From a virus, in the IMG/VR virus record IMGVR_UViG_3300010391_000269, positions 1 through 33,519 of that record: DNA of 33,519 bases. One strand, 5' to 3'. Below are positions 588-30,178 of this stretch, in pieces. How positions within the stretch are numbered: position 1 is the stretch's first letter; the number at the start of each line of letters is the position of its first letter. The notes under the pieces were generated by a model. That model had not been told where the DNA came from, made no database searches, and saw nothing but the letters and a program-made list of their open reading frames with translations. Position numbers and translations under genes: made by a program.

Positions 588-1000
588 GGGAGGTTGAAGC
601 ACCTACTTCATCAGGCTTATAGGTGATTATAAAGGTCTGACGAAACCAGTCTTTTTATCATGATGTAATATACATAGAGCATAATCGATGCTGACTGGCA
701 AGAGGACTTTTCGATTATTTTAAAAGACCTCATCGATCTTAGCTCATTGAAGGAGTAGGGGAGACATGGCTCTCCACTATACTATACCAGATTCTGGAGA
801 TATCTGGATTTGTACCCTTGCCGTAATCTTTTAGTAGCGCCATGTCAAGACTACTTACAGACGACGATAGCTATGCTAGAGGCTAAATTCTTATGTGAAT
901 CCAATCCAAAGAAAGGTTTTTTGGTTGCTTATGCCAAATTACCTGCTTCCAGCTACTGCCTAAATATCGTCTAAAACCGGCATCTTTAGGCAACACTTTA
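588..1000. ncRNA. Candidate large structured RNA with kissing loops and a pseudoknot
   Basis: This gene-free stretch is less AT-rich than its surroundings and full of complementary segments: CACCTA 600-605/620-625; CCAGTC 646-651/693-698; ATGTA 663-667/671-675; AGCAT 678-682/688-692; TAGGGGAGA 756-764/771-779 with one mismatch; CCAGAT 787-792/802-807; AGTAG 833-837/851-855. The six-base loop CATGGC (765-770) of one hairpin is perfectly complementary to GCCATG (839-844) in the loop of another, a kissing-loop arrangement. At the end TGCCTAAA 957-964 pairs with TTTAGGCA 985-992, and the first seven loop bases TATCGTC (965-971) pair with GACGATA (863-869), giving a pseudoknot. No tRNA, tmRNA, RNase P or group I core was recognised. 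Strand is undecided: it lies between divergent genes. Confidence 0.6.
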
Positions 1001-4528: not shown

Positions 4529-5224
4529 ATGATTTCATATTCAGATTTGAAAAAAATAATAAATAATGAAGGATATGAATTACTTACATTAGAGTCTGAA
4601 TATAAAAAATTACATAGTAAGATAAAATTAAAATGTAGTAAAAATCATGAGTTTTTTAAAAGGGCTGATGCTTTTAAAAATATGAAACAAAGATGTACAA
4701 TATGTTCAAATAAAGCTAGAAAAAAATATTCTATAGAATTTATAAAAAATATCTGTAAAAAAGAAGGATATATATGTTTATCTACTGATTATAAAAATAT
4801 TTTTGATATGTTAAGTCTAATATGTCCAAATGGTCATGAAATTAAGATGAGGATGGATGGATTTATACTACAAGGTTATAGATGTAAAAAATGTTCAGAC
4901 AAAGAAGCAGGAAAGAAAAGAAGTTTAGAAAAACATCATTGGTGGAAAGGTGGTATATGTAGAGAGCCTTATTGTTTTGAATTTACTAATGATTTAAAAC
5001 ATTATATAAAAGATAGAGATAAAAATTTATGTATTAATCCATATTGTTCTAAGAAATCTAAAAAATTACATATACATCATATTGATTATAATAAAAAAAA
5101 TTGTGATCCATCTAATTTAATAACAATATGCAACTCATGTAATTCTAAAGCAAATGAGGATAGAGAATGGCATACTAAATGGTATAAAACTATAATAAAT
5201 AATAGAAGATATTATAGAACTTAA
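4529..5224 (+). CDS. HNH homing endonuclease with zinc-binding repeats
   Basis: The 231-residue protein has two repeats of about 60 residues, each with a C-x-NGH/NHE-type half site followed by G-x-RC-x2-C (CSKNHEF...RCTICS; CPNGHEI...RCKKCS), likely DNA-binding zinc modules. The C-terminal part is HNH: LHIHHIDYNKKNCDPSNLITICNSCNSKAN, with HH as the catalytic pair and C-x2-C structural ligands. It is a close relative of the gene at 12059. Its ATG follows the previous TAA with no gap, and no obvious intron surrounds it, so it looks like a free-standing homing endonuclease inserted between metabolic genes. Confidence 0.87.
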   Translation: MISYSDLKKIINNEGYELLTLESEYKKLHSKIKLKCSKNHEFFKRADAFKNMKQRCTICSNKARKKYSIEFIKNICKKEGYICLSTDYKNIFDMLSLICPNGHEIKMRMDGFILQGYRCKKCSDKEAGKKRSLEKHHWWKGGICREPYCFEFTNDLKHYIKDRDKNLCINPYCSKKSKKLHIHHIDYNKKNCDPSNLITICNSCNSKANEDREWHTKWYKTIINNRRYYRT

Positions 5225-6935: not shown

Positions 6936-6983
6936 ATGAGTGAAGAAAAGAAATACAAATGGATTTTAAATGATCATATATAA
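6936..6983 (+). pseudogene. 15-codon start fragment cut off by the GIY-YIG gene
   Basis: TAGGAGAACAATT precedes ATG 6936, which reads MSEEKKYKWILNDHI and then TAA at 6981-6983. The good ribosome site and start suggest the 5' end of a real gene. The GIY-YIG endonuclease ATG (6970) lies inside it, so the remainder may have been displaced by endonuclease insertion. It could also be a genuine leader peptide that couples translation to the endonuclease. Confidence 0.35.
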
Positions 6984-7698
6984 AATTACTAATTTAATAA
7001 ATGGAAAAATTTATATTGGAAAATCAATATATAATAATCCAAATTATTATGGTTCTGGAACTTTTTTAAATAAAGCAATTAAGAAACATGGAAAAGAAAA
7101 TTTTAAAAAAGAAATAATTATTGAGTTTTATTTTTATGATGAAAAATTATTAAATAAAGAAGAAATATATTGGATAAAATATTTTAATTCTAGAGAATCC
7201 AATATAGGTTATAATATCACCAAAGGTGGAAATGGAAATTTTATTTTAGATAATGAAATTAAAGATAAAATTAGAAAGATTCAAAAAATAATTCAAAATA
7301 ATCCTGAAGTAAATAGTAGAAGATCTAAATCTTGTATAGAAGCTTGGAATAAATCTGGTAATCGAAAAGAAAAATTTTCTAAAAAAATGAAAGTTAATAA
7401 TCCTACAAAAATTAATGAAGTATGTGAAAAAATATCTAAATCAAAAAAAGAATTTTGGAATAATCCAATAAATAAAAAGTTATTATCTGAGGTAAAAATA
7501 AATTTTTGGAAGAATCCATTAAAAAGAGAAATGATGATACAAATTCAAAAAGATGTAGCAAATAGGCCAGAAAAAAAGAAGAAAAGTTCTGAAGGTGGAA
7601 AATTAGGAAGTATCATAGGTAATCATAATCGATATCATAAAAAATTAAATATTTATAATCCAGATTGTGAGGAATGTATTAAATGGTTATATAGATAG
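6970..7698 (+). CDS. GIY-YIG homing endonuclease
   Basis: The 242-residue protein begins MIIYKITNLINGKIYIGKS, the GIY-YIG motif (IYKI ... YIGKS), with GSGTFLNKAIKKHG containing the conserved arginine-replacing basic region, and EEIYWIKYFNS carrying the catalytic glutamate, then GYNITKGGNG. The rest is basic with repeated FWNNP/FWKNP elements resembling DNA-binding NUMOD-type repeats. It is free-standing and lies within a truncated upstream frame. Stop TAG at 7696-7698. Role: mobility of its own gene by cutting endonuclease-free relatives. Confidence 0.88.
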   Translation: MIIYKITNLINGKIYIGKSIYNNPNYYGSGTFLNKAIKKHGKENFKKEIIIEFYFYDEKLLNKEEIYWIKYFNSRESNIGYNITKGGNGNFILDNEIKDKIRKIQKIIQNNPEVNSRRSKSCIEAWNKSGNRKEKFSKKMKVNNPTKINEVCEKISKSKKEFWNNPINKKLLSEVKINFWKNPLKREMMIQIQKDVANRPEKKKKSSEGGKLGSIIGNHNRYHKKLNIYNPDCEECIKWLYR

Positions 7699-12058: not shown

Positions 12059-12940
12059 TTGTCTTTTAAATATAATATAGAATATGTTAAAAAATATGTT
12101 AAACAATTCGGATATAAATGCACATCTGATTTTTATATAGATGGAAGTAAAAATCTTGAGTTTAAATGTAAACAAAACCATACATATATTACAAATTTTT
12201 ACAATTTTAAACAAGGTAGTAGATGTTATATTTGTAATGGAAAAGTAAGCGGAACATCTAAAAAAGATATAAAGTTTATTAAACAATATATTTCCAATTT
12301 TGGTTATATTTGTTTAGATAATGAATATAAAAATTCATATACTAAATTAACAATTATATGTGACAAAGGTCATACCTACAAAACTAAATGGACAACAATG
12401 CAACAAGGATATAGGTGTCCTGAATGTGGTGGAAAAAGAAGAAAAACTTTTAAAGAAGTTAAAGAATATATAGAAAAATTTGGATATAAATTATTAGATA
12501 AAGAGTATAAAAATTCATATCAAAATAAATTAAATTTATTATGCCCAAATAATCATAAGATAAAAATGTTGTGGGGTGGATTCCAATATGGAAACCGGTG
12601 TAGAATTTGTGCTTATATAGATAATGGAATTAAAATTACTGGATCAAATCACCCAAATTGGACAGGTGATAATAAAGAATATTGTTACATATGGACAGAC
12701 TATTCGTTCAAAGAATATATCAGAAATAGAGATAATAATAGATGTTTAAATCCATATTGTAATGATAAAACAAAAAAATTACATGTACATCATATAGATT
12801 ATAATAAGAAAAATTGTAATAAAAGTAACTTAATAACTTTATGTAACTCATGTAACTGTAGAGCAAATTTTGATAGAGAATGGCATAAAGAATGGTATAA
12901 AACTATAATAATTCACAGATATGGAGGAAAAATTGTTTAG
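12059..12940 (+). CDS. HNH homing endonuclease with three zinc-binding repeats
   Basis: The start is TTG 12059, with GGAGG at 12043-12047. The 293-residue protein has three repeats of about 60 residues, each C-x-NH/KGH...G-x-RC-x2-C (CKQNHTY...RCYICN; CDKGHTY...RCPECG; CPNNHKI...RCRICA), then HPNWTGDNKEY and the HNH core LHVHHIDYNKKNCNKSNLIT with CNSC. It is a paralogue of the gene at 4529, with one more zinc repeat. It ends just inside the polymerase gene, so it is a homing endonuclease parked directly in front of a replication gene, as often seen in T4-like phages. Confidence 0.88.
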   Translation: MSFKYNIEYVKKYVKQFGYKCTSDFYIDGSKNLEFKCKQNHTYITNFYNFKQGSRCYICNGKVSGTSKKDIKFIKQYISNFGYICLDNEYKNSYTKLTIICDKGHTYKTKWTTMQQGYRCPECGGKRRKTFKEVKEYIEKFGYKLLDKEYKNSYQNKLNLLCPNNHKIKMLWGGFQYGNRCRICAYIDNGIKITGSNHPNWTGDNKEYCYIWTDYSFKEYIRNRDNNRCLNPYCNDKTKKLHVHHIDYNKKNCNKSNLITLCNSCNCRANFDREWHKEWYKTIIIHRYGGKIV

Positions 12941-15900
12941 TATAAAAAGTTCATTAGCAGATTGTTCAAAATGTATATTGTTGGACCAATCAAGCTGTAT
13001 TTTAGAGACTAACTGTGAAGACGATATAACGAAAGTTGATTTAATTATAATTGCAGAAAATCCTGGCAAACAAGAAATTGAAAAGGGAGTACCACTTATA
13101 GGAAGAGCAGGACAAACATTCAGAACTTATTTTAATAAATATGGTTTAAATAAATTAAATTATTTATTAACTAATACTGTTCTATGTCAGACTATTCTTC
13201 CAGATGGTACTACTGGAAATCCAGATGAAGAAACAATTGAGAGATGTAAAGTAAATTGCTTTAATATTATTGAAACATGTAAACCAAAATTAATTGTTTT
13301 ATTAGGAACAAGTCCGATGTCTGCATTTGGATTAGCAAAATCAGGAATAACTAATATACGAGGCAATTTTTTTAAGTGGAAAGATTTTGATATACTTCTT
13401 ACTATTCATCCTAGTTTTGTAAATAGAAATAGAAGTTTTGAAGAAAAATTTGCAGAAGATCTAAGAAAAGTAGGAGAATTTTTAGGAAGCGTAAGTGAAA
13501 CTGAAAGTAAAAATGACGTTATAGAAAACCATCAAAAAGGAGTATGGTATTATAAAATTCCTGATAAATATTATACCTCTGATTACAGATTAGTAGATGT
13601 ACAATTTATAAATAAGACTAATGAAATACTTTATATTTTTAGAGACAAAGATAATAAAAAAGTATATCATAAAGAAAATGATGATTATTATTGCTACCAA
13701 TCTCCAAAGGAAATTGAAGCAAAGAAGAATGTAAAATTTGATGACTTAAACTTAATTAAGATCCCATATAAACATAAATTAAAGCTTGATCCTACTATTA
13801 CTTATGAGGGTGATATTAAACTTAGTGTAAAGCGAGCTATTGATTATTTTCTTTTGAAAAAAGAAGAAGCAAAAATTATAGATTTAAATGTAATGTTTTT
13901 AGATATTGAAGTTTACTCAGTAGATAAATTCCCCGAACCTGTTGATGCTGATTATCCAATAGTTATTCTTTCATATTGTTATCACGGAAAATTTAAAACA
14001 TATGCTTTAGAACATAGTTCAATAATAAAAAATTCAACCCAAAAAATAAGTCCAAGTAAAAATTCAGATATTAAAATTTATAAAAACGAAAAAAGTTTGA
14101 TGTCTGAATTTGTTAAAGATTTAAAAGATCTAGATCCAGATATCGTTACAGGCTGGAATTTTATAAAATTTGATTTGCCATATATTTTTAATAGATTAAA
14201 AAAGCTAGGTATTCCTCAAGCATCATTATCTAAATTTGGAGATGCTTTTGTTGACTTTGAAACTGAGTATGCAAGTATTACTGGATATACTGTACTTGAC
14301 CAATTAAAACTTTATAAAGAGTTTATTTTAACTAAAAGAGAAAATTATAGATTAGGTACTATCGCACAAATTGAACTAAAAGATAAAAAGAAATTAGATG
14401 AAGGAGAATCATTTGCTTATAAATATGAAAGAGATATTAATTCAGCTATAGAATATAACATAAGAGACGTTGATATTCTTGTTGAAATTGAAAAAGAAAA
14501 ACAACATATAGGATTCCTAAATGAGTTAAAAATTATTAGTAAAAATACATTTAGAGGGTCAGCTTCTCCGTTTGGAAGAATAGATGCTCTATGTATATCC
14601 TATCTTAAAGAAAAAGGACTAGCATCAAAAAATTCAGAGCATGGAACTAGTACTGAATTTGAAGGAGCATTTGTTAAAGAACCTATTACTGGAATAAATG
14701 ATTGGATTGTTGATTTTGATTTTTCTTCTCTGTATCCAAGTATTATTTTAACATATAATATTGGGATCAATACATTTATTGCAAAGTTAAAAGAAACTAA
14801 TCATGCTTATTATTTAAATTATGATCCATCTTCTCTTCCTGATATGATTCCAGTAGTATTAGATCCAACTTTTTCGAGAAAAGAAGTAATGGTTAAAAGA
14901 GAAGAATTAATACAAAAGATAAAAGATGAAAAATCTATATGTGTAATGAGTGGTTGTATTTTTAAGAATCATGAAAAAGAGTTATCATATTTTAGTGAAA
15001 TTCTTGAAGTACTGCTTTCATCAAGAAAAGTATATAAGAGTAAAATGTTTGATGCAAAGCAAGCAAAAGACGAATTTAATAGATTTTTATATAAAACTAA
15101 ACAAGAGGCTTATAAGATTCTAGCTAACGCTTTATATGGAGTTTTGGGTAATTCAAGCTTTAGATTTTTTGATAGAGATTGTGGAAGATCTGTTACTCTA
15201 AGCGGGCAAGAAGCAATAAAGACTGCAATTTTAGAAGGAAATAATTATGTAAATAAAATTAAGACTGGAAAACTTGAATTAGTTCCTAAATTAAATGTTA
15301 ACGAAATGTATGGAGATCTAACTAGAAAAACTCCATTTGTTATAACTGGTGATACTGATTCTTTATTTATTACATATAATGATGTTATAGATAAAAAGAA
15401 AAGTAGAGAAGATATAATAAAAGATGTTACTTTATGGAATGAAAATATTGAAGAATATCTAAATAAAGAAATTATACCAAGAATAGTTATTTCTAAAAAT
15501 GTGGATATAAAAAGAAATAAGCTAGCTTTGAAAAACGAACTTGTTATAAGTAGAGGATTATTTTTAGCAAAGAAAAGATATTCTCTACGAGTTATAGAAC
15601 AAGAAAAGAAAGCAACTGATGAAATAGAATCAAAAGGGATTGAAACCAGAAGGTCAGATTTTCCTTCTTATACGAAAACGTGCTTATCAGAGTTACTTGA
15701 TATAATTTTAAAATCTGAAAAAATATCAATTAAACATATAAATGATTATGTTATAAATAAAGAAAAAGAATTTGTTGGTAAAATATTAAGTGGAGATAAA
15801 ACAGTAGCGAGACCAGTGTCATTTACTAAAGATGAAGAAGATTATAAAAAGATTCCTCAAGGAGTAATTGGAATGCAAAATTGGAATAATTTAATATATG

Positions 15901-16178
15901 ATATTTTTAGAGTAGGCTCGAGGGGATATTTATTTAAGTTAGCAGGTATTGATTTTGATAAAGCACCGAAAGAAGTTATAGAAAGATATCATAAAGAGTT
16001 TACAGCAAAAGGTAAATCATTACATATTATTGTTTTACCTGATGAAGAAGTGAAGTTACCTAGTTATTTTATACCAGATAGAAAAAAAATGTTACAATTT
16101 TCATGGATTGATAGATATAATTTATTATTAGAACCTATAATGGAAGTTAAGAAGAAACAAGAAGTATTAACTTTTTAG
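12933..16178 (+). CDS. Fusion of family-4-type uracil-DNA glycosylase and family-B DNA polymerase
   Basis: The start is TTG 12933, five bases after GGAGG; an ATG at 12921 contains that site and has none of its own. Residues 1-190 are a Fe-S uracil-DNA glycosylase: CSKC, AENPGKQEIEKGVPLIGRAG, NTVLCQT, LIVLLGTSPMSAFG and LTIHPSFV. The rest is PolB, counted from 12921: ExoI FLDIEV (~326), ExoII GWNFIKFDLPYI (~410), ExoIII YNIRDVDIL (~511), motif A DFSSLYPSI (~599), motif B KILANALYGVLGNS (~731), motif C GDTDSLF (~810), KKRY (~883). All catalytic aspartates are present, so it should polymerise and proofread. The fused UDG could remove or sense template uracil. No lesion interrupts this 3.2-kb frame. 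It is the likely replicative polymerase. Confidence 0.93.
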   Translation: MFSIKSSLADCSKCILLDQSSCILETNCEDDITKVDLIIIAENPGKQEIEKGVPLIGRAGQTFRTYFNKYGLNKLNYLLTNTVLCQTILPDGTTGNPDEETIERCKVNCFNIIETCKPKLIVLLGTSPMSAFGLAKSGITNIRGNFFKWKDFDILLTIHPSFVNRNRSFEEKFAEDLRKVGEFLGSVSETESKNDVIENHQKGVWYYKIPDKYYTSDYRLVDVQFINKTNEILYIFRDKDNKKVYHKENDDYYCYQSPKEIEAKKNVKFDDLNLIKIPYKHKLKLDPTITYEGDIKLSVKRAIDYFLLKKEEAKIIDLNVMFLDIEVYSVDKFPEPVDADYPIVILSYCYHGKFKTYALEHSSIIKNSTQKISPSKNSDIKIYKNEKSLMSEFVKDLKDLDPDIVTGWNFIKFDLPYIFNRLKKLGIPQASLSKFGDAFVDFETEYASITGYTVLDQLKLYKEFILTKRENYRLGTIAQIELKDKKKLDEGESFAYKYERDINSAIEYNIRDVDILVEIEKEKQHIGFLNELKIISKNTFRGSASPFGRIDALCISYLKEKGLASKNSEHGTSTEFEGAFVKEPITGINDWIVDFDFSSLYPSIILTYNIGINTFIAKLKETNHAYYLNYDPSSLPDMIPVVLDPTFSRKEVMVKREELIQKIKDEKSICVMSGCIFKNHEKELSYFSEILEVLLSSRKVYKSKMFDAKQAKDEFNRFLYKTKQEAYKILANALYGVLGNSSFRFFDRDCGRSVTLSGQEAIKTAILEGNNYVNKIKTGKLELVPKLNVNEMYGDLTRKTPFVITGDTDSLFITYNDVIDKKKSREDIIKDVTLWNENIEEYLNKEIIPRIVISKNVDIKRNKLALKNELVISRGLFLAKKRYSLRVIEQEKKATDEIESKGIETRRSDFPSYTKTCLSELLDIILKSEKISIKHINDYVINKEKEFVGKILSGDKTVARPVSFTKDEEDYKKIPQGVIGMQNWNNLIYDIFRVGSRGYLFKLAGIDFDKAPKEVIERYHKEFTAKGKSLHIIVLPDEEVKLPSYFIPDRKKMLQFSWIDRYNLLLEPIMEVKKKQEVLTF

Positions 16179-28402: not shown

Positions 28403-30178
28403 TTGAATATAGAACATGTGAATGATAAAAAGATAATTAACGGACTAGATTATATTTTAAAAGGAAAAAAATGGATTAGAGATATTAGCGACAATAGAAT
28501 AATAGAATTATATAAAAAATATGGAGTAATTAATAAAGTAGCAAAAGAACTAAAAATAGATAACTCAACCGTTAAGAATAGACTTTTAAAATATAATATA
28601 CATATTAATAGTCTTAAAGAATCTTTAAATATTTCGATGAATGATATAGAGGTAAAAGAAAAATTAAAAAACTCATATAAAGGAAGTATAGAAAAAAGAA
28701 AGAAAACTAATCTAGAAAAATATGGAGTTGAATTTGCATCTCAATCTGAGGCGTTTCAAGATAAAGTGAATAAAACTTCGTTAGAAAAATATGGGGTTGA
28801 ACATTTTTTAAGTAATAAAGAAGTTATAAATAAACGAGTTGAAAGTAATATTAATAAATATGGAGTTTCTAATGTAAGTCAAGTTGATGATATAAAGTTG
28901 AAGAGAGATAAAACATTTATAGATAAATTTGGCACCTCTAAAATATTTACATTAGAAAGTATTAAAGAAAAAAGTAAAGAAACATTATTAAGAAGATATG
29001 GTGAGAATAATCCATCAAAAATAGATGTATTTAAAATTAAACGAAAGAAAACCAATTTAGATTTATATGGTTCTGAATATTTTTTAAATAGTGATATAGC
29101 TAAAGAAAGAATATTGAAGATTAAGAGTGAAAAATTTATATATAAACTAATAAAAATATTAGAGTATATAGATTTAGAACTATTAGACGAATACAAACAT
29201 GCTCATTATTTACATAAATGGAGATGTAAAAAATGTGGGAATGTATTTGAACAAATATGGAATATAATTCAACAAGGGTATAAATGCCCTTCATGTAATC
29301 CAAGAATTGTTTCTACATATGAAAATGAGTTAAGAAATTTTATATTAGAAATTATTCCTTCTAATAGTATTGAATATAATATTAGATCTATAATAAAGCC
29401 TAAAGAATTAGATATTTATATTCCTTCTAAAAATATAGCTATAGAATTTAATGGTTTATATTGGCATGATGAAAACCATAATAAAGATTCAAAATATCAT
29501 TTAAATAAAACTCTAAAATGTAAAGAACAAAATATAAAATTAATACATATTTTTGAAGATGAATGGATATTTAAAAAAGATATAGTGAAAAATAGATTGA
29601 GACAGATACTTAGAGTTAATAATTCACAAAAAATTCATGCAAGAAAATGTATAGTAAAAGAAATAGATTCTAAAACCAAAAATGAATTTTTAGAAAAATA
29701 TCATATTCAAGGACCAGATACATCTAAAATAAAGTTAGGATTGTTTTATAATAATGAATTAATATCTACTATGACATTTAGTCATGGAAACATTTCAAAA
29801 GGATCTAGATCTATTCCTGAAGTTTGGGAATTAAATAGATTCTGTAGTAATAGTAACTATATAATTAATGGTGCAGCATCTAAACTATTAGAATATTTTA
29901 AAAGAAATTACTCTTGGAGAATTATTTTTAGTTATGCAGATCGTAGATGGTCTGATGGTAATTTATATTATAGATTAGGATTTGAATTAAACAAAGAAAC
30001 CGCCCCAAATTATTGGTATATTAAGGGATTAGAAAGAATTCATAGATTTAATTTAAGAAAAAATAATACAGACCCAAAAGATATTCCTGAATGGATTTTA
30101 AGATATAAAGAAGGATATTCAAGAATATGGGATTGTGGTAGTTTAAAATTTATATTAAAAAATAGTGGGAGCTTATAA
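28403..30178 (+). CDS. Large homing endonuclease: KYG repeats, PD-(D/E)xK-like nuclease and Mom/GNAT-like C-terminal domain
   Basis: The start is TTG 28403 with GGAGG upstream inside the portal 3' end. The 591-residue product has a helix-turn-helix-like part (YKKYGVINKVAKELKIDNST), then five or six repeats of about 35 residues ending in KYG/RYG (NLEKYGVEFASQSEAF), a zinc site (CKKCGNVF...CPSC), and KELDIYIPSKNIAIEFNGLY followed by WHDE, with IKLIHIFEDEW, a Vsr-like nuclease core. The C-terminal 150 residues (ARKCIVKEIDSKTKNEFLEK, IKLGLFYNNELISTMTFSHG, SYADRRWSDGNLYYRLGFEL) match the GNAT-like domain seen in phage Mom-like proteins. It sits between portal and core genes, a common homing location. 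Confidence 0.8.
   Translation: MNIEHVNDKKIINGLDYILKGKKWIRDISDNRIIELYKKYGVINKVAKELKIDNSTVKNRLLKYNIHINSLKESLNISMNDIEVKEKLKNSYKGSIEKRKKTNLEKYGVEFASQSEAFQDKVNKTSLEKYGVEHFLSNKEVINKRVESNINKYGVSNVSQVDDIKLKRDKTFIDKFGTSKIFTLESIKEKSKETLLRRYGENNPSKIDVFKIKRKKTNLDLYGSEYFLNSDIAKERILKIKSEKFIYKLIKILEYIDLELLDEYKHAHYLHKWRCKKCGNVFEQIWNIIQQGYKCPSCNPRIVSTYENELRNFILEIIPSNSIEYNIRSIIKPKELDIYIPSKNIAIEFNGLYWHDENHNKDSKYHLNKTLKCKEQNIKLIHIFEDEWIFKKDIVKNRLRQILRVNNSQKIHARKCIVKEIDSKTKNEFLEKYHIQGPDTSKIKLGLFYNNELISTMTFSHGNISKGSRSIPEVWELNRFCSNSNYIINGAASKLLEYFKRNYSWRIIFSYADRRWSDGNLYYRLGFELNKETAPNYWYIKGLERIHRFNLRKNNTDPKDIPEWILRYKEGYSRIWDCGSLKFILKNSGSL

Follow-up and report, generated by a model that had tools for sequence, protein, structure and literature searches.

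A candidate structured non-coding RNA with predicted kissing loops upstream of queC in a T4-like phage

Background

ROOL and GOLLD are phage-borne RNAs which are assembled via kissing loops and A-minor contacts (PMC12286853). Their genes are often found near tRNA islands, a frequent but not universal feature (PMC12286853). Here we analyse a stretch of approximately 430 bases, located at about 550–1000 of a virus record, for which a preliminary description had proposed a large structured RNA reminiscent of these two families. The whole record of 33.5 kb, originating from a T4-like phage, is referred to as the window, and all features described below are given for the + strand unless stated otherwise.

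Results

The window contains genes for QueC (starting at 1121), an NT5C nucleotidase, a dCMP deaminase, a family B DNA polymerase with an N-terminally fused uracil-DNA glycosylase domain (12921–16178), a DnaB helicase, a portal-like protein and a prohead protease of the S77/T4 type. ORFs at 4529–5224, 6970–7698, 12059–12940 and 28403–30178 resemble, by eye, free-standing homing endonucleases (HNH or GIY-YIG-like). Since relatives of this phage are represented in IMG/VR by contigs of up to 277 kb, the window probably covers just part of a large genome. The stretch is flanked by small leftward genes (240 to 1 and 488 to 321, - direction) and by the rightward queC operon. Upstream of each leftward gene an identical 43 nt repeat is found (265–307 and 504–546), containing the palindrome GGGATATTATATATCCC and CATAAATA. 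A similar palindrome, GGGATAT...ATATCCC, is located at ~430–455 in the related phage L012, also upstream of its leftward gene, and this resemblance argues against a chimeric assembly. The same relative has a tRNA called as Pyl (7007–7084, anticodon CUA), possibly an amber suppressor.

The 3' boundary of the stretch is set by the promoter-like TTAATATATATA of the queC operon (1003–1024, element at ~1010), which is common to many related phages about 100–115 nt upstream of queC. The gap before this promoter, ~520 nt, is long compared with the queC loci of most related phages. Within the queC leader (1003–1120) there are two promoter-like elements common to ~20 related phages, the first being TTAATATATATAG and the second consisting of TGAGA(T), a spacing of ~17 nt and GAACAWAwTAnnAAA directly upstream of the Shine-Dalgarno sequence. 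A sigma-70-like promoter for the candidate RNA was not found, nor is the stretch preceded by either of the promoter-like elements of the phage itself. The sequence AATATACATAG at 667 is one base off the phage element, but lies mostly within the 663–675 hairpin and was discounted as a promoter. In the region 480–1150 the sole terminator-like site is located at the start of the stretch (552–569, tail CTTTAATTCT) and none was found at the 3' end of the candidate RNA.

There is no convincing coding frame in the stretch. It holds no ATG-initiated ORF of at least 40 aa, and to this extent it is ORF-free as originally described, but a TTG-initiated ORF of 54 aa is located at 810–974 (+). This ORF had no match in PHROG, nor had the stop-to-stop extension of its frame in a phage tblastn search; as the frame resembles nothing in either, a decayed or small gene was rejected. 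With ~35–40% GC the stretch is indeed less AT-rich than the rightward genes (roughly 20–30% GC), but not than the leftward genes at 1–500 (41–53%), so the raised GC content is not specific to it.

The potential of the stretch to form pairs can be read directly from its bases. The first hairpin, CCCGAT-ATCACC-ATCGGG, is the terminator-like one at 552–569, and its loop (558–563) is complementary to GGTGAT at 622–627. It is followed by TGAAG-CACCTA-CTTCA (595–610), whose entire 6 nt loop (600–605) is complementary to TAGGTG at 620–625. Both complements are located in the 14 nt loop ATAGGTGATTATAA (619–632) of the hairpin TCAGGCTT/AGGTCTGA (611–640; 8 pairs, stem 611–618/633–640), which may thus serve as the receiver for either of them. 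A three-way junction (646–698) is closed by CCAGTC (646–651) and GACTGG (693–698) and encloses hairpins at 663–675 and 678–692. The loop of the latter, AATCG (683–687), is complementary to the loop CGATTATTTT of the hairpin GAGG-a-CTTTT / AAAAG-a-CCTC (702–731), a pairing (683–687/712–716) that extends to 7 bp with flanking bases (681–687/712–718). Further downstream, the hairpin GGAGA-CATGGC-TCTCC (760–775) exposes a 6 nt loop (765–770) which in its entirety is complementary to GCCATG (839–844) in the receiver hairpin AGTAG-CGCCATGTCAAGA-CTACT (833–855). Finally, GACGATA (863–869) is complementary to TATCGTC (965–971) within the 20 nt loop of the 3' hairpin TGCCTAAA/TTTAGGCA (957–992, stem 957–964/985–992). 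The last two pairings had been listed in the preliminary description and were found exactly where it had placed them.

How readily such pairings arise by chance depends on how they are counted. There are 5 loop–loop matches of at least 6 nt compared to a shuffle mean of 4.7, and 54% of the shuffles contain a 7 nt match between the loop of some hairpin with 5 or more pairs and a site elsewhere. For these matches the earlier statement that they are hard to obtain by accident does not hold, and such lenient counts are in line with a plain intergenic spacer separating divergent blocks of genes, in which leftward accessory genes were lost or replaced and fortuitous pairings were picked by inspection. 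The statement does hold for a 7 nt match from the loop of a perfect hairpin of at least 8 pairs (1.6% of the shuffles) and for a strict full-loop statistic, in which the entire 5–7 nt loop of one hairpin must find its complement within the loop of a second hairpin at most 120 nt away. By this measure the stretch has three non-overlapping kissing pairs with loops of 5–6 nt (600–605/620–625, 683–687/712–716 and 765–770/839–844), compared to a shuffle mean of 0.04, a number reached in 0 of 4000 shuffles and in 0.13–0.18% under looser settings. The hairpin at 552–569 is a fourth one, competing for a loop that is already part of this set, the receiver of 611–640. When 1.8 Mb of fetched sequence was tiled into 16,558 overlapping windows of 420 nt, no other one had three such pairs; the single scoring one begins at 526 and counts the competing 552–569 hairpin instead of 595–610. 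Both the enrichment and this uniqueness speak against a mere spacer. The p-values are optimistic, because the first kissing loop was already known when the statistic was devised; the two further kissing pairs, absent from the preliminary description, together with the competing loop provide a partly independent check. Since one ROOL example used as a control scores 0 in the strict form (counted on the ROOL part alone, with its match assumed to start 1500 bases into the locus), the full-loop statistic is no validated marker of ornate RNAs.

No homolog of the stretch was found by phage and plasmid blastn, by a DNA search across the whole records of 13 relatives or by nhmmer and blastn over 1.8 Mb. 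At ~35 related queC loci there is no equivalent at that place, where related phages carry other small genes in leftward orientation, as would also be expected of a spacer with exchanged accessory genes. Two single-sequence covariance models run over 1.7 Mb did not reveal a homolog; the best non-self match (model R2 in L155, E 0.39) overlaps an ORF end and was judged to be chance. DNA-pattern scans of viral (IMG/VR) and genome collections, which may lack the records closest to the window, yielded no homolog. The 19-mer CAGACGACGATAGCTATGC had no viral match, matches to the 18-mer GGTCTGACGAAACCAGTC were in three viral contigs, those to the 17-mer GGGAGACATGGCTCTCC in 26 bacterial contigs, in both cases with no meaningful alignment outside the pattern, and the 14 matches of the 15-mer ATCGTCTAAAACCGG were judged to be chance. 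A search for the candidate RNA via its leftward neighbour protein did not find relatives. None of the 4227 Rfam families, which we take to include the GOLLD model, matched the stretch at gathering score, and the likeness to ROOL and GOLLD suggested initially is not borne out at this level: neither the ROOL (RF03087) nor the GOLLD covariance model gave a match at or above it.

The folding energy of the whole region is moderately low, with z-scores of -2.0 (+) and -1.8 (-). Such a global value of just about -2 fits an ordinary spacer as well, an explanation which, all evidence considered, we regard as the main rival, possible though somewhat unlikely. Locally, the mean z in sliding windows of 150 nt is -1.4 (+) and -1.2 (-) within the region and -0.4 and -0.2, respectively, in the rest of the window. 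The segment 642–699, which contains the three-way junction, reaches -2.15, and the 3' domain (888–1000) reaches -2.9 on the + strand, where 0 of 200 shuffles were equally stable. The stem 611–618/633–640 contains two G-U pairs, which are possible on the + strand only. Together with the + preference of the 3' domain, these pairs weakly favour rightward transcription of the candidate RNA. The kissing pairs are Watson-Crick and hence available on both strands, as they would be if the hairpins acted as DNA in a control region (a divergent promoter region, a replication origin or a recombination site), and the stretch is indeed located where transcription diverges and the GC skew flips its sign. 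However, since no more than 1 kb of the leftward side is part of the contig, the argument from skew is weak. Moreover, such a structure is missing from relatives whose genes diverge in the same arrangement, and the stretch contains no iterons; a role at the DNA level thus appears improbable.

Discussion

The best reading of the stretch from ~550 to 1000, to which we give an even chance, is that it encodes a structured non-coding RNA, specific to the lineage of this large T4-like phage and probably read rightward. It is preferred because full-loop kissing hairpins are enriched and the 3' domain is more stable than all of its + strand shuffles. Further support comes from the three full-loop pairs with their competing hairpin, unique among the tiled sequences, from the shifted local z-scores, the G-U pairs confined to the + strand, the missing coding frame and the long gap before queC. 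This reading is weakened by the whole-region folding energy, by the negative homolog searches, by the post hoc nature of the statistic together with its score of 0 in the ROOL control, and by the missing promoter before and terminator after the stretch. The large structured RNA of the preliminary description is partly supported, namely by the kissing enrichment and the 3' domain.

We infer transcription, strand and folded state of the candidate RNA as well as any function, be it that of a scaffold, an RNA-only complex or a decoy. The RNA would be transcribed rightward from the gap that separates the leftward genes from the queC operon, and several of its hairpins would be locked together by intramolecular, or perhaps intermolecular, kissing loops. 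The 3' loop (965–971) would pair upstream with 863–869 as a pseudoknot, and the loop 619–632 could switch its partner between the hairpin loops 558–563 and 600–605. As there is no Rfam match, homolog, recognisable promoter or 3' terminator, a new class cannot be claimed from this one sequence. We consider it rather unlikely that the stretch represents a new class of large phage RNAs in which successive hairpin pairs are joined by full-loop kissing and one receiver loop switches partners. If transcribed and folded as drawn, this orphan would join the few known large phage RNAs held together by their own kissing loops; if not, the stretch illustrates how easily a GC-richer spacer looks ornate on inspection.

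A diverged member of a known family (tmRNA, ROOL, GOLLD or another one in Rfam) is highly improbable and largely refuted by the covariance-model scans: with tmRNA (RF00023) the candidate RNA shares a similar length, several predicted pseudoknots and a chance-like tag frame, faintly tag-like by eye (ACA-GAC-GAC-GAT-AGC-TAT-GCT-AGA-GGC-TAA from ~857, TDDDSYARG*), but a permissive Rfam scan gave 9.2 bits (gathering 47) with both model ends over 22 nt, ARAGORN called no tmRNA in the window, a tRNA-like domain was not recognised and neither T-arm nor acceptor stem is seen by eye, so that the tmRNA reading at ~857–887 was rejected on the Rfam and ARAGORN negatives.

The resemblance to ROOL (RF03087) is that of a large non-coding RNA of phages or prophages with kissing loops (PMC12286853), which in the candidate RNA are predicted ones. 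ROOL is ~570 nt long and often near tRNA islands, whereas the candidate RNA is shorter and ARAGORN found no tRNA gene in the window, itself a contig fragment; furthermore, the ROOL example is without the full-loop kissing signature found here. GOLLD is likewise phage-borne, non-coding and built with kissing loops (PMC12286853), here again predicted, but many of its members exceed 800 nt and the candidate RNA is shorter. We do not file it as a member of either family, but by analogy it may work like ROOL and GOLLD.
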